Source: Candidatus Methylacidiphilales bacterium (GTDB lineage Bacteria > Pseudomonadota > Gammaproteobacteria > JASGCS01). From it: a DNA stretch of 34,700 nt. This document shows, in pieces, positions 6,127 through 16,869 of the stretch (its first letter is position 1; each line of letters opens with the position of its first letter). A program made the translations under genes and the position numbers. Under the pieces are notes generated by a model that did not search any database, had not been told where the DNA came from, and worked only from the letters and a program-made list of their open reading frames with translations. The stretch lies in assembly GCA_030054035.1 (NCBI GenBank), contig JASGCS010000008.1:1-34700 (forward strand). Reading direction: 5' to 3'.

Positions 6127-6492
6127 ATGAATAAAAATAAATTAAACGCAATCGCAATGTCAATTGGAGTTAGCTTACTCGGAGCTACCGTTAGCAGTAC
6201 ATTAGCTACTGAATCCACTTCAAAACCTTTTGAATTAAAACCAGCTATTTCTGGTTCTACTTTAGCTGGCGACCATAAAGAAGGAAGCTGTGGCGACAAG
6301 AAAGGCAAAAAAGAAGGAAGCTGTGGCGAAAAGAAGAGCAAAAAAGAAGGAAGCTGTGGTGAAGGCAAATGTGGTGACATGAAAGGCAAGAAAGAAGGAA
6401 GCTGTGGCGACAAGAAAGGCAAGAAAGAAGGAAGCTGTGGTGACATGAAAGGCAAGAAAGAAGGAAGCTGTGGCGAAAAGAAGAGCAAGTAA
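6127..6492 (+). CDS. Bufferin/HvfA-type RiPP precursor (repeat-built)
   Basis: An exported precursor peptide of the copper-binding bufferin/HvfA family. Residues 1-27 form a signal peptide, with likely cleavage after SSTLA. A spacer to about residue 50 follows. Residues 51-121 are almost pure repeats: six EGSCG motifs (52-56, 63-67, 74-78, 90-94, 101-105, 112-116) and one EGKCG (79-83), separated by DKKGKK, EKKSKK or DMKGKK linkers. The cysteines (55, 66, 77, 82, 93, 104, 115) are 11 residues apart apart from one 5-residue step. In this family a DUF692 enzyme oxidises the motif cysteine to a heterocycle that binds copper in the periplasm. The DUF692 (6574) and DUF2063 (9545) genes follow. Replacing the canonical Lys of EGKCG by Ser in six of seven motifs is unusual. 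Confidence 0.85.
   Translation: MNKNKLNAIAMSIGVSLLGATVSSTLATESTSKPFELKPAISGSTLAGDHKEGSCGDKKGKKEGSCGEKKSKKEGSCGEGKCGDMKGKKEGSCGDKKGKKEGSCGDMKGKKEGSCGEKKSK
6277..6489 (+). repeat. 33-bp coding tandem repeats in the bufferin precursor
   Basis: The C-terminal 71 codons are head-to-tail copies of a 33-bp unit encoding K-EGSCG-linker-K, interrupted once by a 15-bp EGKCG insertion at about 6361-6375. Copies are near-identical at the DNA level (GAAGGAAGCTGTGG recurs), implying recent expansion or conversion by slippage or unequal crossover. Copy number may vary between strains and assemblies. Confidence 0.85.
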
Positions 6493-6518
6493 ACTTACTC
6501 TAAAAAATGTTGTACTCC

Positions 6519-6547
6519 AACACCACCTTACATAGGTGGTGTTGTTG
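6519..6547 (+). terminator. Hairpin between precursor and maturase genes
   Basis: AACACCACCT (6519-6528) pairs perfectly with AGGTGGTGTT (6534-6543) around a 5-base loop: a 10-bp stem. It is followed by GTTGTTTATATAT, which is only moderately U-rich. This fits a leaky intrinsic terminator or a stabilising 3' hairpin that would keep precursor mRNA in excess over the enzyme genes, as is common in RiPP operons. A TATAAT lies just beyond it (6554-6559). Confidence 0.6.
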
Positions 6548-6553
6548 TTTATA

Positions 6554-6567
6554 TATAATGGTAATAT
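6554..6567 (+). promoter_or_regulatory. Possible internal promoter before the maturase gene
   Basis: A perfect TATAAT at 6554-6559 is followed by TGG-TAATAT at 6559-6567, the second box ending exactly six bases before the ATG at 6574. Either could restart transcription after the hairpin at 6519-6547. The region is AT-rich, so chance matches are plausible. Confidence 0.3.
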
Positions 6568-6573
6568 AAAACT

Positions 6574-7410
6574 ATGCAAAAACAAACTTTCCAAGGCTCT
6601 GGGTTAGGGTTACGCAGAGGGTTTATGGAAGAGCTATCAACCAAATCATTTAAAAAAACTATTGATTTTTTTGAGATAGCACCAGAAAATTGGATTGATA
6701 TAGGAGGATCCTTAGCAATTCTTTTTCATGAATACACAGAAAAGTATCCGTTCATTGCCCACGGACTTTCCTTATCAATAGGATCTCCAGCTCCATTAAA
6801 TATCGCTCTTGTAAAAGAGATTAAAACCTTCCTATCAGATTATAAAATTAAGTTATACAGCGAGCACTTAAGTTGGTGCGCAGATGAATCACAGTTATTT
6901 GACTTATTACCGATCCCTTTTACCATAGAGGCTGCCAAACACACTGCTAAACGCATTGCCCAAGTTCAAGATATCCTAGGAAAACAAATCGCGATTGAAA
7001 ACTCTTCTTATTATCTTGCTCCAGGGCAACACCTAAAAGAAATAGAATTCCTAAAAGAAGTGCTTGAGCAATCGGATTGTCTATTGCTCTTAGACATTAA
7101 TAATATTTATGTTAATTCTGTTAACCACGGTTACGATGCTAAGGCATTTATAGACGCAATTCCAACAGAGAGAATCGCGTACGCACATATTGCTGGTCAT
7201 TGGAAAAAGAAAAAAAACTTAATTATTGACACCCACGGCAGTGCAGTAATTGAGCCGGTATGGGATTTATTGGCATACGCCTACAACATCCATGGTTTGT
7301 TTCCAACGCTCCTAGAGAGAGATTTTGATTTTCCACCTTTACAAGAATTACTTACAGAGGTTTCAAAAATTAAAAATCTACAACATACCCATGCCTATGC
7401 AAACACTTAA
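6574..7410 (+). CDS. DUF692 multinuclear-iron RiPP maturase (BufB/HvfB/MbnB family)
   Basis: A cytoplasmic TIM-barrel oxidase that modifies cysteines of the bufferin-type precursor. Relatives MbnB, BufB and HvfB use two or three iron atoms. The conserved metal-ligand segments are all present: HGLSLSIG (His63), YSEHLSW (Glu97/His98), IENSS (Glu142), LLDINN (Asp174), HIAGHW (His205), DTHG (Asp219/His221) and LLERD (Glu248). The 278-residue length is typical. It follows the precursor gene across a hairpin and precedes the other operon members with overlaps or short gaps. The exact chemistry on EGSCG, as opposed to EGKCG, motifs is not known from sequence. The start lacks a Shine-Dalgarno. Confidence 0.9.
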   Translation: MQKQTFQGSGLGLRRGFMEELSTKSFKKTIDFFEIAPENWIDIGGSLAILFHEYTEKYPFIAHGLSLSIGSPAPLNIALVKEIKTFLSDYKIKLYSEHLSWCADESQLFDLLPIPFTIEAAKHTAKRIAQVQDILGKQIAIENSSYYLAPGQHLKEIEFLKEVLEQSDCLLLLDINNIYVNSVNHGYDAKAFIDAIPTERIAYAHIAGHWKKKKNLIIDTHGSAVIEPVWDLLAYAYNIHGLFPTLLERDFDFPPLQELLTEVSKIKNLQHTHAYANT

Positions 7411-8899
7411 TGAGTTAATATTTCTTGCATCAAATTTTATCACCATCGTTGTTAGTGTAGGTGTTGTTGTACTTATTGTCACGGTGATCACTCTGTATAT
7501 CAAAGATCGCACACAAACCAGTCACGCTATTCTGCGCAATTATCCAGTGATTGGGAGATTCCGGTACTACTTTGAACATTTAGGTGAATTTTTTAGACAG
7601 TATTTCTTTTCTTTGGATCGAGACGAAATGCCCTTTAACCGCTCCGAACGATCTTGGGTGTATCGCTCTGCGAAAAAAATTGATAATACCATTGCATTTG
7701 GTTCAACCAGAAGAATTGATGAAGATGGAACAATCCTTTTTGCTAATAATCAAACGCCAATTTTAGATAGCGAAGCGCTACCTACCCCTCCAGTCACAAT
7801 TGGAAGTTATTGTAAAAACCCTTATCAAACTGCATCATTGGTCAATATCTCCGCTATGTCATTTGGTGCAATATCTGAACCTGCAGTGCTTGCTTTAAGT
7901 AAAGGGGCAAAAAAATGTGGTTGCTGGTTTAACACTGGTGAAGGTGGGCTTTCACCTCATCATCTTGCAGGTGGATGCGATATTATATTTCAAATTGGCA
8001 CAGCTAAATATGGCGTAAGAGAACTAGATGGCTCACTTTCAAAAACAAAATTGCAATCTATCGCCGCAATACCCGAAGTTAAAATGTTTGAATTAAAATT
8101 GAGTCAAGGTGCCAAACCTGGTAAAGGCGGAATATTACCAGCAATTAAAATTACTCAAGAAGTTGCGGATATCAGAGGTATTGAAGTTGGCAAGGATTCC
8201 ATAAGTCCAAATCGCCATCTAGAAATTAAATCTGTAAATGAATTATTAGATTTTATTTCTATGATCAGAGATGTAACTGGGAAACCTGTTGGTATCAAAA
8301 CTGTACTCGGCGAATACGAATGGATTCAGGAATTATGTGAAAAAATTCTACAACGCGGGCAGGAATACGCTCCAGACTTTATTACCCTTGATAGCACAGA
8401 TGGTGGTAGCGGAGCGGCGCCTATGAGCCTCATGGACTATGTCGGACTACCGATCCGAGAAACTGTTCCACAAACTGTCAATATTCTCTTAGAGGCAAAT
8501 CTGAAAAAAAGAATAATGGTCTGTGCCTCAGGTAAATTAATCACGCCAGACAAAGTAGCATGGGCCTACGCGCTTGGAGCAGATTTTGTAAATACCGCAC
8601 GAGGCTTTATGTTCGCGCTAGGTTGTATTCAATCATTAAAATGCAATTTAAACACCTGCCCAACTGGTATCACCACCCACGATAAAAAATTGCAACGCGG
8701 ACTGAACCCAACTGACAAAGCTGAACGAGTAGCCAATTATGCGAGAGGGCTTTCAAAAGAGGTAGAAACGATTTCTCATTCTTGCGGAGTTGCTCACCCA
8801 CGACTACTGAGAAGAAAACATGTTAGACTACTGAGACGCTTCGGACCGTCACTTCGCTTAGATGAGATTAGACCCTACCCAAAAAACACTTCAATGTAA
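7391..8899 (+). CDS. Membrane-anchored FMN/3Fe-4S glutamate-synthase-like protein
   Basis: Resembles the synthase half of glutamate synthase (GltS/GltB2 domain), a flavin and iron-sulphur TIM barrel. An N-terminal transmembrane helix (about residues 10-37) is followed by the conserved stretch with RNYPVIGRFRYYFEHLGEF. Then come the barrel with STDGGSGAAP and the cluster motif C-x5-C-x4-C at 8624-8659 (CIQSLKCNLNTC). The glutaminase domain of true GltB is absent. Such stand-alone proteins are widespread, and their reaction is mostly unproven. The frame is open from 7325, but starts at 7391 or 7397 leave only a 14-20 bp overlap with the maturase and place the membrane helix at the N-terminus. 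It sits inside the bufferin operon, which suggests but does not prove a linked role. Confidence 0.85.
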   Translation: MPMQTLNELIFLASNFITIVVSVGVVVLIVTVITLYIKDRTQTSHAILRNYPVIGRFRYYFEHLGEFFRQYFFSLDRDEMPFNRSERSWVYRSAKKIDNTIAFGSTRRIDEDGTILFANNQTPILDSEALPTPPVTIGSYCKNPYQTASLVNISAMSFGAISEPAVLALSKGAKKCGCWFNTGEGGLSPHHLAGGCDIIFQIGTAKYGVRELDGSLSKTKLQSIAAIPEVKMFELKLSQGAKPGKGGILPAIKITQEVADIRGIEVGKDSISPNRHLEIKSVNELLDFISMIRDVTGKPVGIKTVLGEYEWIQELCEKILQRGQEYAPDFITLDSTDGGSGAAPMSLMDYVGLPIRETVPQTVNILLEANLKKRIMVCASGKLITPDKVAWAYALGADFVNTARGFMFALGCIQSLKCNLNTCPTGITTHDKKLQRGLNPTDKAERVANYARGLSKEVETISHSCGVAHPRLLRRKHVRLLRRFGPSLRLDEIRPYPKNTSM

Positions 8900-8914: not shown

Positions 8915-9532
8915 ATGAAACTTTTACCACAGCTTATTTTTTTTATTAGTAACATTAAATTATTTATTTTTAAATTTGATTGGATAGCACCTCTACTCTG
9001 TAGAATTTATCTGGTGCCTATTTTTTGGAGTGCCGGTATCAAAAAATTTAATTCTTTTGAAAGCATTGTCTATTGGTTTGGTGAAGGTGGTCTTGACCTC
9101 CCCGCTCCTCAGCTAATGGCATTTTTAGCCACAGCAAGTGAATTAGTTGGAGCAATTTTTCTCACCTTAGGCTTTGCTACTAGATTGATCTGTATACCAC
9201 TTTCCTTTACTATGATTGTTGCTGCAGTTACTGTGCATTGGCAGTATGGATGGCAGGCAATTCTAGACCCAGGATCACCTTTTGCTCCTCCTTATGCCGA
9301 TGAAGGTATTGAAAGATTAGAAAAAGCAAGGGAGATATTGGACACACATGGTAATTATGACTGGCTGACCGAAACTGGAAATTTAGTTATCCTTAATAAT
9401 GGTATAGAATTTGCAGCAACGTATTTACTTCTCCTCATAGTGCTGATAACCATTGGTGGAGGGAGATATGTCAGTGCTGACTACTGGATTTTTAAAGCGT
9501 TTGTTTCCTACTATCAAAGAAAAAGCGGTTAA
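8915..9532 (+). CDS. DoxX family membrane protein (BufD/HvfD-like)
   Basis: An inner-membrane protein of 205 residues with about four hydrophobic helices (near residues 25-45, 65-90, 92-108 and 165-185). The RIYLVPIFWSAGIKKFNSFES opening and the FLATASELVGAIFLTLGFATR segment are typical of DoxX. A hydrophilic loop of about 50 residues lies between the third and fourth helices. DoxX proteins accompany DUF692/DUF2063 pairs in many bufferin-type operons, where a role in redox or export is presumed but not established. It is 15 bp after the glutamate-synthase-like gene and 12 bp before the DUF2063 gene. Confidence 0.85.
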   Translation: MKLLPQLIFFISNIKLFIFKFDWIAPLLCRIYLVPIFWSAGIKKFNSFESIVYWFGEGGLDLPAPQLMAFLATASELVGAIFLTLGFATRLICIPLSFTMIVAAVTVHWQYGWQAILDPGSPFAPPYADEGIERLEKAREILDTHGNYDWLTETGNLVILNNGIEFAATYLLLLIVLITIGGGRYVSADYWIFKAFVSYYQRKSG

Positions 9533-9544
9533 GGGATTTCAAAT

Positions 9545-10315
9545 ATGCATTTTGCAATTTTGCAGAGAAATATAGCACGATATCTGCGCACTAAAAATAC
9601 TAAAGGAATCCCAAAAAAACTACTGGGTGAACGCTTAGAGATCTATCGCGAATTAGTTGTTAGTAACATAGAGTCATTTATTGATACGAGATTTCCTATT
9701 TGTGCATCTATGCTCGGAAATAAAAAATGGAGAAGCTTAGTGCTCAGTTTTATCGCCGAACATCCAATTTCCTCACCTTATTTTCACCAAATCCCTACAG
9801 AATTTCTTTTATACCTAAATAAACAACCTCTGAAACAACTCCCTCCCTATCTTTTAGAGTTAGCGCATTACGAATGGGTAGAGCTTGCTATTCTTACCTC
9901 TAAAAACACCCCACTTCCTGCTTTTAAAAAGAAAATTAAGTTAGACAAACCAGTCGTTCTAGTCCCAATTTCACAAATTTATCTCTACCGTTTTCCAGTA
10001 CATACATTTACCACCAAGATGTATAAATCTGCTGTCATAAAAAGACAAACAAAATCGGCACGTACTACACCGATACACCTCGTTATGTTTAGAAAAATAG
10101 ATTATACACTTGGGGTAAGAGAAGTTACTGCCGCAATGGCTTTACTTATTAACGCATGTATTCAGACGCCAAAAAAAATCCTCCATCGCCATATCCTTAC
10201 AATAGCTAAAACAATGAATATCCAGCAAGACCAATGTAAACAATTTGAAAATCAAGCGATGCAAAACTTACTCACTTTACAGCGAGAAGGTTTGATTTTA
10301 GGTTCTAAAAGTTAA
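9545..10315 (+). CDS. DUF2063 RiPP maturase partner (BufC/HvfC family)
   Basis: The partner protein of DUF692 maturases, thought to recognise the precursor and present it to the iron enzyme. The N-terminal domain carries the family signature: ERLEIYRELVVSNIESFID, then FPICASMLG, KKWRSLV and EHPISSPYFHQIPTEFLLYL over roughly residues 35-100. The rest is a winged-helix-like C-terminal region. The 256-residue length is normal. An AGGGA Shine-Dalgarno precedes the ATG. It ends the operon; its stop overlaps the convergent outer-membrane protein gene by 4 bp. Confidence 0.88.
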   Translation: MHFAILQRNIARYLRTKNTKGIPKKLLGERLEIYRELVVSNIESFIDTRFPICASMLGNKKWRSLVLSFIAEHPISSPYFHQIPTEFLLYLNKQPLKQLPPYLLELAHYEWVELAILTSKNTPLPAFKKKIKLDKPVVLVPISQIYLYRFPVHTFTTKMYKSAVIKRQTKSARTTPIHLVMFRKIDYTLGVREVTAAMALLINACIQTPKKILHRHILTIAKTMNIQQDQCKQFENQAMQNLLTLQREGLILGSKS

Positions 10316-11001: not shown

Positions 11002-12225
11002 ATGATAAATATGAAAAAAGAAATTGAGATAAATAAAGAACGGCTCACTTACCTCATAGAGTTATTCAAGATGAATGTGGGCGATCTTCACGAACTGATC
11101 TCAAAAAACGGCAACAACCCCAGAAAAAAAAGTTTACATATTTCAGACATATACCCTGAAAACAGCATAATAAAACTCAGCATATTAAAACAAATAGACA
11201 AAATATTCAAGAAAGGTCTACATTTCTACACCAACCCAGATCCATGCGATAAATCAACTCATGAGAGTGTTTTTTTCAGGACCCCAACGCTCAATACAAA
11301 ACTTGAACATCAAGATTACGCAAAGATACTAGAACTTGAGGAGGACATTAATCACATTAATCATCTCTTAACCATTTGCGATATTCCCTTAACGCGGATA
11401 CTTAGAAAACAGAAATATACGGATGACCCAGTAACAATTGCTGAGTTAGTAAGAGATAAACTAAAAATAGGAAATGATCGTCTCACCAATAATCAGTATA
11501 AAAATAAACTTCTTAATTTTACTAACGCATTGGCAAAATTCGATATACCTGTAATTGAATTTATTGAACACCCTACTATTAAATATAAAACAAACTTTGA
11601 AGGATTGACTATCTCAAACTTTTTAATAATTAAACATAATACGATTTCAAAAAAAAGAGAGATTTTTACTCTTGCCCATGAACTAGGACACTACATCCTC
11701 AATCAAGAAGCATTTGATAATTCATTCAACTGCGAACCACAACAAGATATAGAACGATGGTGTAATACTTTTGCAATTAATCTATTGTTAAGCAATGATT
11801 CCAAGAAAAGCTTAGGACTAATACGATCATTTAATGCAGACACAGCTTCACTTATAAATAATATATCCAATATTGATGGTGTAAGTGAATTAGCAATTTA
11901 CCTTTATTTATATACAAATAATATTATCAGCTGGGATAATTATATCGAGCATAGAAATAGGGTAGATCAAATAATTAAAGATAAAAAAGAGAAACAAAAT
12001 AAAAAATTAAAAAGTAACAGTGATAAAACCTTCGGTAGAATTGCAAAACCTATACAATCTGAGATTGTTGAGAGGGCTTACCGTATGGCATATCTTCAAG
12101 GTGCAATTGAAGAATATGAAGTGGTGCAGTATTTCAAACCTAACATTTCAGAAATTCAGCGAGGTTTTTTTGATAATTTTATCTACGGCACACCGATGAT
12201 TTCTACTAAAAAGAAAGCCGCATAA
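11002..12225 (+). CDS. ImmA/IrrE family zinc metallopeptidase
   Basis: A cytoplasmic COG2856-type protease, 407 residues. The zinc site is HELGH at residues 226-230 with a downstream Glu251 in IERWCNTFAINLLL, the expected arrangement for ImmA/IrrE. The N-terminal 60 residues may be a degenerate helix-turn-helix, and SVFFRTPTLN with the following helix resembles the linker of XRE-plus-ImmA proteins. Such proteases cleave repressors or act as antitoxins. The PIN-like gene starts 14 bp downstream, a known pairing. Codon use looks even more AT-rich than the neighbours, hinting at acquisition. The start could also be the ATG at 11011; neither has a Shine-Dalgarno. Confidence 0.85.
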   Translation: MINMKKEIEINKERLTYLIELFKMNVGDLHELISKNGNNPRKKSLHISDIYPENSIIKLSILKQIDKIFKKGLHFYTNPDPCDKSTHESVFFRTPTLNTKLEHQDYAKILELEEDINHINHLLTICDIPLTRILRKQKYTDDPVTIAELVRDKLKIGNDRLTNNQYKNKLLNFTNALAKFDIPVIEFIEHPTIKYKTNFEGLTISNFLIIKHNTISKKREIFTLAHELGHYILNQEAFDNSFNCEPQQDIERWCNTFAINLLLSNDSKKSLGLIRSFNADTASLINNISNIDGVSELAIYLYLYTNNIISWDNYIEHRNRVDQIIKDKKEKQNKKLKSNSDKTFGRIAKPIQSEIVERAYRMAYLQGAIEEYEVVQYFKPNISEIQRGFFDNFIYGTPMISTKKKAA

Positions 12226-12239
12226 TCCATTTAGATACT

Positions 12240-12773
12240 ATGCATATTATTGATACAAGCAGTCTAATAAGTTACTGTGACTACTATCTTCCTTTAGATT
12301 TCAAAAAACTGCTCAGTAATTTTCTAAAAGAAAAAATTGAGAGCAAGGATATTCTACTAATAGATAAAGTGATTGATGAGTCAAGAAAGACTCGTAATGG
12401 CGTAGTAATAAAAAATTTACAATTTATAAACAACGATACATTAGGTATAAAGACTATTATTACAAAAGAAGACCATGAATTGATTGCCACCAATTTTCTT
12501 AATAAGAAGTTAGTGCCTATTAATAGCAAAGTAAACTACATCACAGAAAAAAATAATTACATTAATACAGCCGATCCTGCATTAATATTATACGCAAGAA
12601 AGAACAACTACACTATAATAACTGAAGAGCAAAGTAATAATTCAAACTATAAAAAGATATTCAACAAGATTCCAACTATATGTGCTTCATTAAAAATTAA
12701 TTGTATTTCTATGGCAAATTATTTAAAAGATAATTCAACTTTAAAATTGGGACATTTCAATATTGCAGAATAA
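12240..12773 (+). CDS. PIN-like protein, DUF4411 type (putative toxin)
   Basis: A 177-residue protein resembling DUF4411, a PIN-like RNase family. Acidic residues expected for a PIN active site are visible: Asp5 in MHIIDTSS, Glu47 in VIDESRK and Asp112 in TADPALILYA. ITEEQ and the closing IPTICASLKINCISM fit the DUF4411 C-terminus. In many genomes DUF4411 genes sit next to ImmA/IrrE proteases, as here (14 bp gap), and are predicted type II toxins or RNA-cleaving effectors. The composition is very AT-rich with many Asn and Lys residues. RNase activity is inferred from the fold only. Confidence 0.75.
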   Translation: MHIIDTSSLISYCDYYLPLDFKKLLSNFLKEKIESKDILLIDKVIDESRKTRNGVVIKNLQFINNDTLGIKTIITKEDHELIATNFLNKKLVPINSKVNYITEKNNYINTADPALILYARKNNYTIITEEQSNNSNYKKIFNKIPTICASLKINCISMANYLKDNSTLKLGHFNIAE

Positions 12774-13909: not shown

Positions 13910-14860
13910 CTAAACGCTTACTGCCCCTCTTTGAAAGGTATAGTTTTTCGCAACGCCGATAGGTTCTTTCTTTTGAATTTTTAATTTCATGGAAAGTTCA
14001 GCTTGTGAATTAACTTCTATTAATTGCCAACTCGTGCTTGCAAGATGTTCACGCGATGAGTCTAAATAAGTAGGACTTATCGATTGAAGGTATCTTTTTT
14101 CAATGCCGTAGGTTGACCATGCAGTAGATACTCCTGAACTATGTATCACAGCATCTACTTTAAACTGTAGCTGTTGATGAACATGCCCAAAAAATACCGA
14201 CGCTTTATTAAAGGTTGTTAATAACGATTGTACGATATGCCCATCTGAGTTAAACGAACTATCATCAATGTTTTTTACATTAACGAGTGGAAGGTGTGAA
14301 ATTAACACTACTTCCGTTTCTTTTGACACTTTAGACAAGTCGTTGTGCAACCATTCAAGTTGAGGTTTGGCAATGATAAACTTACCAGTCTGATCGCTTT
14401 TCATTATTGAATTAATCACAACAAAATGAACATTTTTGTGATCAAAACTATAATAATCATCGCCAAAATGATCTTTCCACATTGCTCCACTTGCATCATG
14501 CAGACAATCATGCTCGCCGATTGCAAAATAGATTGGTTTTTGTAATTGTGAAAGTATCTCTTTCACACGCGAGAACTCTTCTGGCTTCCCTGTGTGAGTA
14601 AGATCTCCTCCAACAATCACAAAATCTACTTGGTCAGACTTTTGATTGAGTTGCTTTACTGCTTCTACTAAACTGGTATCCCATTTTTTAATAAAAGTAC
14701 CGTCTGGCTCAGAAGCAATATGGGTATCGGATATAAAAGCAAAATTAAATTTATACCCCCCTCTATTGTCTGAACTGGCCATGCCCATTAATGGCACACA
14801 ACTCGCAGATGCAACTAAACCAGTTTGTTTAATAAAATTTCTTCTATTATTATTTTTCAT
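13910..14860 (-). CDS. Tat-exported metallophosphoesterase
   Basis: A calcineurin-like phosphoesterase of 316 residues predicted to act in the periplasm. The N-terminus carries a twin-arginine signal (NRRNFIK at residues 5-11 plus a hydrophobic stretch to about 28). Metal motifs follow in order: SDTHI, GGDLTHTG, GEHD, SHLPL and GHVHQ. The usual GNHD is GEHD here, which I believe occurs in a subfamily of Tat-type members. The substrate is unknown; cyclic nucleotide, phospholipid or nucleotide phosphoesters are all possible. It is 14 bp downstream of the amine oxidase gene on the same strand, so the two are probably co-transcribed and end at the terminator at 13852-13885. Confidence 0.85.
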   Translation of the reverse strand: MKNNNRRNFIKQTGLVASASCVPLMGMASSDNRGGYKFNFAFISDTHIASEPDGTFIKKWDTSLVEAVKQLNQKSDQVDFVIVGGDLTHTGKPEEFSRVKEILSQLQKPIYFAIGEHDCLHDASGAMWKDHFGDDYYSFDHKNVHFVVINSIMKSDQTGKFIIAKPQLEWLHNDLSKVSKETEVVLISHLPLVNVKNIDDSSFNSDGHIVQSLLTTFNKASVFFGHVHQQLQFKVDAVIHSSGVSTAWSTYGIEKRYLQSISPTYLDSSREHLASTSWQLIEVNSQAELSMKLKIQKKEPIGVAKNYTFQRGAVSV

Positions 14861-14874
14861 AATTTCTCTTCCGA

Positions 14875-16869
14875 TTAATAACGAGGTTTATAGTAGATTG
14901 GTTTTGTTTTAATATTTTTTGCAGGATCTTTAATGGAAACTTTACCTCTATCACCATAATAATCATAAGCATCCTTAAAGAATTTATGCGAACCAAATGG
15001 ACTATTACCAAATACACCGCCTTCAAATAGTGTATCACCAAAAGAAACCACCACCGCACAAGCAGCATTTAATCCAGTATGAAAGGCTCCTTCACCCCAA
15101 CCTCCTGTAAAGGAAATACAATCACCGGCTAAAAAGATACCATTATCACTACTGGTACCAGCTTTTAAGAAATCATAATATGCATCCTTAACCATGCCAT
15201 CTTGTCCAGCTTGAGCCAATGTGAAAGCTCCATTAAAATAATCCGTGGACTGCCAATCAACCCACTTTAGATCATTATTAATATCGCCTGTAAATGGTGT
15301 TAGGTATTGTGAAAAACCTTCAATTGGAGTTCCCTTTGTAAATATATCAATATCTAAAACCAGTTGCTCAAACCTTGATCTAGGATACGCACTACCTTTG
15401 AGAATCGCATGATCTCTAAGCGCTTGACTTTTGACTGCATTATCTTCCCAAGTATAGGTTATAAGCACTACCCCACTTCCGCTCGCATCACCATAATCTA
15501 AAGTATAGAGTTGCTGTAAGAAAGTGTCAGTTTGAAAGCCTCTTATAAAATTAGGGTCATTTTTCCAGAAGTTATTCGTTCGTAAGAATAGCTTTGAGGA
15601 TGAAATAACATGAATATTATTAACCGCTTCAAGGGTGTTTTGGCTAAAAGAGCCTTTATTAGTATTTTTATTCAGACCCATTAGTTGTGCAGACCTAGTC
15701 GTGGTTGCAATAATTACTTTTTGAAAATCAGAGTACACAACCGGCGATCCATCTTCTTTAATTGCTATTATTTGCGGTTTTCCATCTTGATAACCTAATT
15801 CAATGACTTTAATCCCATGTAAAATCTTACCGCCATTTGCTTTTAACCCTGCAGCTAAATTATCAGTTACTTGAGAGATGCCGCCTGGCACAAAGACTTG
15901 GTCTGTTTCTAATTGATTAGTTAATAATCTATAAATATAGCAGAATCCTATTCCATAGAGAGATCCAAACCCACCTGAACCAATTCCAAGCGCAGCAAAT
16001 TTTTGAAAATCTTCTGCAGTCCAGACTACCCCACCTGGCACATCCCATTTGTGTTTAGGTCCAAAGATCTTGTACAGGCCACTATAAAATGAATCTTGCC
16101 CAAACTCGGTTAGATACTGTTGCCATGCTTCATAAATTATTGCGATATTAGCCTCTGGCTTTAACGCTAGAGTCGCGATTTCAGGTCCAGATAAAAACAA
16201 TCCCACACCATTATGGGATATTCCTTGAGTCGCTAAAGTGATCCAGCCATTGTATACGGTTTCAAAACCAACTGGGGCTTTGCTTGAGTCACTCCAATTT
16301 TGTCCGACACCTTTGTAATTAATCCATGTAGGTACTTTACCTGGATCTGGAAAAGTTGTATCAACCTGAATTCCAAATTGATTAATATAATAGAACAAGG
16401 TTTCTTCTGAAGGAGGGAATCTCATTGCACCAAGTTCAGCGATATCGCTTGATGGAGAACCGTCTGAATTTATAAATGGAACAGATCTAAATCTCCCACC
16501 AATCCCAGATGCTTTATTTGCCTTAACTTGATCTTCTGGATACAGTGTATCTGGTGCTGTTAAAACGACTACATCGTATCCGATCTTAGACAATTCAAAT
16601 GCTGCAGTTAGTCCAGATACTCCAGCCCCAATTACAGCAACTCTTCTTAGGCTAGATGGCGCAGTAGTATTACCAATCTTCCCATTAATACCACCATTAG
16701 CTAACAACCAATCTGAATAGATCACCCATGGAGTATCGGCGTACGATTGTAAAGTCGAATCTACCTTAGTTCCAATCACCCTGTTTGATCTAGGTCTAAA
16801 ACCTACTTTATTTCCAGGTGGTAATTGTGCCCTCTTTTTGCTCAAGTTATTTGGTATAAAAGTACTCAT
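14875..16869 (-). CDS. FAD-dependent L-amino-acid oxidase/monooxygenase, IaaM-like
   Basis: A flavin amine-oxidase-family enzyme of 664 residues. The FAD-binding GAGVSG is at residues 81-86. AELGAMRFPP (Arg150), TTFPDPG, ALGIGSGGF, SSKLF and ITYTWEDNA match the tryptophan 2-monooxygenase (IaaM) and phenylalanine 2-monooxygenase group, and the C-terminal GGWGEGAFHTGLNAACA closes the FAD site. An extra N-terminal segment of about 75 residues precedes the FAD domain, as in longer proenzyme members. The likely reaction is oxidation or oxidative decarboxylation of an aromatic L-amino acid; the exact substrate is unproven. No IaaH-type amidase is in the window. A perfect AGGAGG sits five bases before the ATG, and the promoter is overlapped by palindromes. 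Confidence 0.82.
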   Translation of the reverse strand: MSTFIPNNLSKKRAQLPPGNKVGFRPRSNRVIGTKVDSTLQSYADTPWVIYSDWLLANGGINGKIGNTTAPSSLRRVAVIGAGVSGLTAAFELSKIGYDVVVLTAPDTLYPEDQVKANKASGIGGRFRSVPFINSDGSPSSDIAELGAMRFPPSEETLFYYINQFGIQVDTTFPDPGKVPTWINYKGVGQNWSDSSKAPVGFETVYNGWITLATQGISHNGVGLFLSGPEIATLALKPEANIAIIYEAWQQYLTEFGQDSFYSGLYKIFGPKHKWDVPGGVVWTAEDFQKFAALGIGSGGFGSLYGIGFCYIYRLLTNQLETDQVFVPGGISQVTDNLAAGLKANGGKILHGIKVIELGYQDGKPQIIAIKEDGSPVVYSDFQKVIIATTTRSAQLMGLNKNTNKGSFSQNTLEAVNNIHVISSSKLFLRTNNFWKNDPNFIRGFQTDTFLQQLYTLDYGDASGSGVVLITYTWEDNAVKSQALRDHAILKGSAYPRSRFEQLVLDIDIFTKGTPIEGFSQYLTPFTGDINNDLKWVDWQSTDYFNGAFTLAQAGQDGMVKDAYYDFLKAGTSSDNGIFLAGDCISFTGGWGEGAFHTGLNAACAVVVSFGDTLFEGGVFGNSPFGSHKFFKDAYDYYGDRGKVSIKDPAKNIKTKPIYYKPRY

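Follow-up and report, generated by a model that had tools for sequence, protein, structure and literature searches.

The 34,700-nt stretch of contig JASGCS010000008.1 that was analysed (the window) carries five genes on the forward strand in the order hvfA-hvfB (MNIO)-glutamate-synthase-like-hvfX (DoxX)-hvfC (DUF2063), with hvfA as the first gene of an apparent operon (Table 1). All five genes are open, and HvfA, HvfB, HvfX and HvfC score above the curated NCBIfam cut-offs. The precursor matches the HvfA model NF050137 in hmmscan (23.9 bits, cut-off 19.5), although a genome-wide search with the same model missed it. The closest solved structure to the window HvfB is 3BWW. A bufferin identity of the precursor was rejected, because it has no match in Pfam and the maturase reaches only 266 bits against the BufB model, below the cut-off of 310. 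By sequence similarity, the operon is assigned to the HvfA/oxazolin family (captophorin), which is a known family. The preliminary description of this DNA had proposed an MNIO RiPP precursor of the copper type, accompanied by its enzymes, and this is borne out, now as a formal HvfA-family match. It also stated that DUF692 and DUF2063 genes follow the precursor gene; the DUF692 gene is indeed directly next, but the glutamate-synthase-like and DoxX/HvfX genes precede the DUF2063 gene.

Table 1. Features of the hvfA-like precursor gene and its operon, in window positions
Feature	Position	Strand	Evidence or remark
hvfA-like RiPP precursor, 7 EGxCG cores	6127..6492	+	121 aa; NF050137 match
Putative Sec-type signal/leader, about residues 1-28	6127..6210	+	Sequence; alignment with leaders of HvfB-adjacent precursors; cleavage site by eye
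Degenerate leader-end motif KPFELKPAISGSTLAGD	6223..6273	+	Alignment; counterpart of NPFxxxxLxSGYMVA in relatives
EGSCG core 1	6280..6294	+	
EGSCG core 2	6313..6327	+	
EGSCG core 3	6346..6360	+	
EGKCG core 4	6361..6375	+	Sole canonical core; abuts core 3 as EGSCGEGKCG pair
EGSCG core 5	6394..6408	+	
EGSCG core 6	6427..6441	+	
EGSCG core 7	6460..6474	+	
Hairpin in the hvfA-hvfB gap (perfect 11-bp stem, 5-nt loop), followed by T-rich tail	6518..6554	+	z = -2.9
hvfB, MNIO (DUF692) maturase	6574..7410	+	PF05114 333 bits; NF003818 HvfB equivalog 408 bits, cut-off 360
Membrane-anchored FMN/[3Fe-4S] glutamate-synthase-like gene	7391..8899	+	PF01645
hvfX, DoxX-family membrane protein	8915..9532	+	NF050144 211 bits, cut-off 80
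hvfC, DUF2063 partner (RRE) protein	9545..10315	+	NF050145 185 bits, cut-off 142

A good ribosome-binding sequence lies ahead of hvfA. Sigma-70 promoters are no more frequent than in shuffled sequences, and no known RNA element was found near the operon in Rfam. The hairpin between hvfA and hvfB is likely a partial terminator or a 3' stabiliser, which would plausibly yield an excess of precursor over enzyme. Elsewhere in the window, a DUF4411 gene lies behind one for an M78/ImmA-like metallopeptidase (11002-12773), and the two resemble a toxin-antitoxin pair. On the reverse strand (13910-16869), the gene of a flavin amine oxidase precedes that of a calcineurin-like phosphoesterase, in another apparent pair.

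The seven cysteines of the precursor (residues 55, 66, 77, 82, 93, 104 and 115) all lie in EG[S/K]CG with a spacing of 11-11-5-11-11-11, confirming on the ORF what had been described earlier. Six cores are EGSCG and one is EGKCG. Shuffling of the mature part (20,000 shuffles) never produced more than two EGxCG motifs, compared with seven in the precursor; the repeats are therefore not due to chance, and such an origin was ruled out. The array had been regarded as built from exact 11-residue repeats. This is slightly overstated. All six EGSCG cores do share the identical 14-mer GAAGGAAGCTGTGG, but the linkers between cores differ (DKKGKK, EKKSKK and DMKGKK) and the full 33-bp units are identical at 24-32 of 33 bases in pairwise comparison, leaving out the unit interrupted by the 5-residue insertion. 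The periods detected by TRF, 33 bp and a higher-order 81 bp (27 residues), are consistent with array growth via tandem duplication. Motif number varies in other lineages, with 12-15 motifs in Pseudoalteromonas and 5-8 Cys in Microbulbifer. EGxCG-coding motifs cluster at the precursor locus only, with no second array in the host genome. A search for relatives of the host lineage retrieved none closer than the same class.

The precursor leader, judged to be of Sec type by eye, aligns with the leaders of its relatives, while the NPF...SGY-like motif is degenerate (GSTLA for GYMVA). On the enzyme side, the specificity residues of FonB include R15 and R16, two Arg that hold Glu1, and F250, which faces positions 3 and 5; D249 is the proposed base. 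Their counterparts in the window HvfB (R14, R15, F251 and D250) are all unchanged, as are the positions at which the HvfB family has invariant His, Asp, Glu or Asn; the enzyme agrees in this with those serving EGKCG precursors. The enzymes of other Ser-rich precursors are likewise unchanged at specificity and catalytic positions. A Ser-adapted enzyme was thus rejected, as neither the known specificity positions nor the conserved catalytic ones of HvfB are changed. Screening HvfB column by column yielded only weak hits, with a best p of 7e-4 in several hundred tests, which is non-significant after correction and confounded by ancestry. The window HvfB departs from almost all of its relatives in having D252 instead of N. 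Together with the degenerate leader-end motif, this residue means that activity could differ.

Cell-free assays of the homologous FonBC showed that it takes Ala, Arg and Thr at position 3 of the core, whereas the bulky Phe, the acidic Glu and Pro block it or severely impair it (PMC13097082). Ser is not named in the main-text position-3 panel of that study; it is intermediate between Ala and Thr. To survey natural cores, 94 distinct precursors encoded no more than 1.5 kb from an HvfB gene were compared, containing 647 EGxCG motifs. EGKCG is dominant (K in 556 motifs) and EGSCG is the second commonest core (38 motifs), occurring at least once in 18 of the 94 precursors. The altered core thus cannot be considered a novelty, as EGSCG is already present in the family. 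EGSCG-rich precursors beside DUF692 genes, a check proposed in the preliminary description, were found in relatives. The precursor of G137 (L064) has six EGSCG and no EGKCG, that of Wenzhouxiangella sp. 15190 (L106) has EGSCG in five of six cores, and that of G366 (L065) has KEGSCGGDKKG repeats with the same 11-residue period as the window precursor. Precursors rich in EGSCG or EGACG were also seen at L107, L104 and L072, and mixed K/S arrays are common. Segments resembling EF-hands (DxNxDG) lie between the EGxCG arrays in the precursors of L065, L072 and L006.

HvfA, fontiphorin and gonophorin bind Cu, and the current assignment of their modification is 5-thiooxazole. All seven cysteines of the window precursor are probably converted to 5-thiooxazoles as well, because FonBC tolerates substitution at position 3, natural EGSCG precursors exist and the HvfB residues are conserved. 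Of the two possibilities raised earlier, tolerance of Ser by the enzyme is therefore strongly favoured. In the proposed pathway, the precursor would be translated with its putative Sec leader and bound in the cytoplasm by HvfBC, and HvfB, an iron enzyme, would oxidise the Cys of six EGSCG and one EGKCG to 5-thiooxazoles (-4 Da each). After export, the modified peptide would chelate periplasmic copper, either buffering or storing it. A middle-position Ser would be a neutral or mildly tuned variant accepted by a generic enzyme, and array size would shift by tandem duplication of the 33-bp and 81-bp units. By homology, the peptide should act as an exported copper chelator. The chemistry, substrate tolerance and copper binding are carried over from homologues, from which we infer full modification and the role. 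We give this reading as a whole, a captophorin operon with all seven sites modified and a periplasmic copper chelator as its product, a probability of roughly 0.8.

Alternatively, all sites may be modified and Ser may retune the product for a different metal or redox state, which would make the Ser-rich precursors a functional, non-neutral subclass. Precursors rich in Ser or Ala turn up repeatedly across several lineages, and Ser does not place the Lys charge beside the thiooxazole. However, no enzyme-side change tracks the variant at the known specificity positions, and the common mixed K/S arrays suggest that the two residues are interchangeable, so that we consider retuning unlikely. Slightly less likely again is the second possibility raised earlier, that modification is confined to the single EGKCG, or to the EGSCGEGKCG pair, with the other EGSCG serving as free metal-binding thiols in a mixed, metallothionein-like product. 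The dominance of Lys in the census and the retention of just one EGKCG in the window precursor would fit this, as would the finding that truncated FonA with one repeat was unprocessed while FonA with two repeats was processed (PMC13097082). It is disfavoured by the acceptance of Ala, Thr and Arg by FonBC, by the natural EGSCG-only precursor beside HvfB at L064 and by the unchanged specificity residues of the window enzyme. A decaying system, in which slippage homogenisation has spread a suboptimal EGSCG, leaving a poorly modified product of little use, could explain the identical 14-mer and the degenerate leader motif but is very improbable given five open genes, four of them above the cut-off of a curated family model, the conserved catalytic residues of HvfB and the retention of all seven Cys with the following Gly.

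Like HvfA/oxazolin (nontypeable Haemophilus influenzae; Buf_EGKCG/oxazolin), the window system has tandem EGxCG cores, MNIO, DUF2063 and DoxX genes and a leader that looks Sec-type, but six of its seven cores are EGSCG rather than EGKCG, its repeats mostly carry a single core per 11 residues where HvfA/oxazolin has two-core cassettes, and its operon contains the glutamate-synthase-like gene. Fontiphorin (FonA of Fontimonas thermophila), a captophorin, is alike in its seven modification sites (predicted here) and in enzyme specificity residues, whereas its cores are Lys-Cys and those of the window precursor mostly Ser-Cys. The EGSCG-dominated arrays of L106 and L064 also lie directly upstream of HvfB but have other spacings and acidic linkers, and no glutamate-synthase-like gene was seen within the stretches of these two loci examined. 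The EGKCG core had been attributed to both bufferins and HvfA. It is a hallmark of HvfA/oxazolin and fontiphorin, but the main bufferins form separate DUF2282 and Cys-Lys families. Bufferins share MNIO and DUF2063 maturation, a Sec leader (putative here) and copper buffering (by homology here) with the window system, and differ in having no EGxCG repeats, other precursor families and a different MNIO residue at the F250 site. Ser for Lys in six of seven cores is a somewhat unusual, natural and probably tolerated variant within a known family.

The glutamate-synthase-like gene starts with an ATG at 7391 or 7397, overlapping the end of hvfB. Its product has one N-terminal membrane segment (by eye). 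Its match to glutamate synthase is limited to the FMN/[3Fe-4S] part, where the three cluster Cys align with those of GltB. A full-length GltB identity for 7391-8899 was rejected, since the glutaminase domain is unmatched and the GltB equivalog scores 128 bits against a cut-off of 1047. Among 81 gammaproteobacterial genomes with HvfX, at least 23, counting that of the window, have a relative of this gene next to HvfX. These cases span 14 families and show either gene order; about 0.06 genomes are expected by random placement. The two genes were counted as adjacent if they shared a strand and lay no more than 1.5 kb apart; the 81 genomes omit the two with the weakest HvfX, glutamate-synthase-like genes were taken at high similarity only, and the coordinates were transcribed by hand from two tables. 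Relatives were also found within a few kb of hvf genes at L071, L085, L098, L128, L129 and L140. In G209 and G085, the gene immediately downstream of hvfB is such a relative. A plasmid search using the operon matched almost only glutamate-synthase-like genes.

None of the papers listed in a literature search connects MNIO, DUF692 or oxazolin with glutamate synthase, and the main text of the two main surveys does not mention such a gene. Its presence beside hvf clusters therefore is apparently unreported. We tentatively propose, at somewhat less than even odds, that a large share of oxazolin-type clusters uses this protein as a functional partner of HvfX that has so far gone unrecognised. As a guess, the protein might be a flavin redox partner supplying electrons to HvfB, or might act with HvfX on the thiooxazole peptide or on copper. 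According to the literature, it is unclear whether the pathway needs an external reductant.

The host genome (1.72 Mb, 96% complete) encodes three COX1 (haem-copper oxidase subunit I) and has two Cu-oxidase_3 matches (multicopper-oxidase-type domains), according to which the host needs copper. No P-type ATPase was detected in it with PF00122 and TIGR01511 (controls 14/14 positive), with the missing 4% of the genome as a caveat; hence no CopA-type copper exporter is visible, and a periplasmic copper buffer would be useful for this reason.

Collectively, these results indicate that the EGKCG label is too narrow for this copper-RiPP family. Ser, Ala, Asn, Gln and Arg occur naturally at the middle position, so searches keyed to KCG may under-count precursors. 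The pair of the glutamate-synthase-like gene and HvfX is a more novel thread than the Ser variant motif, and its recurrence points to a possible missing redox component of the pathway. In a small genome without a detectable P-type exporter, much of the host's defence against copper could fall to such a peptide.
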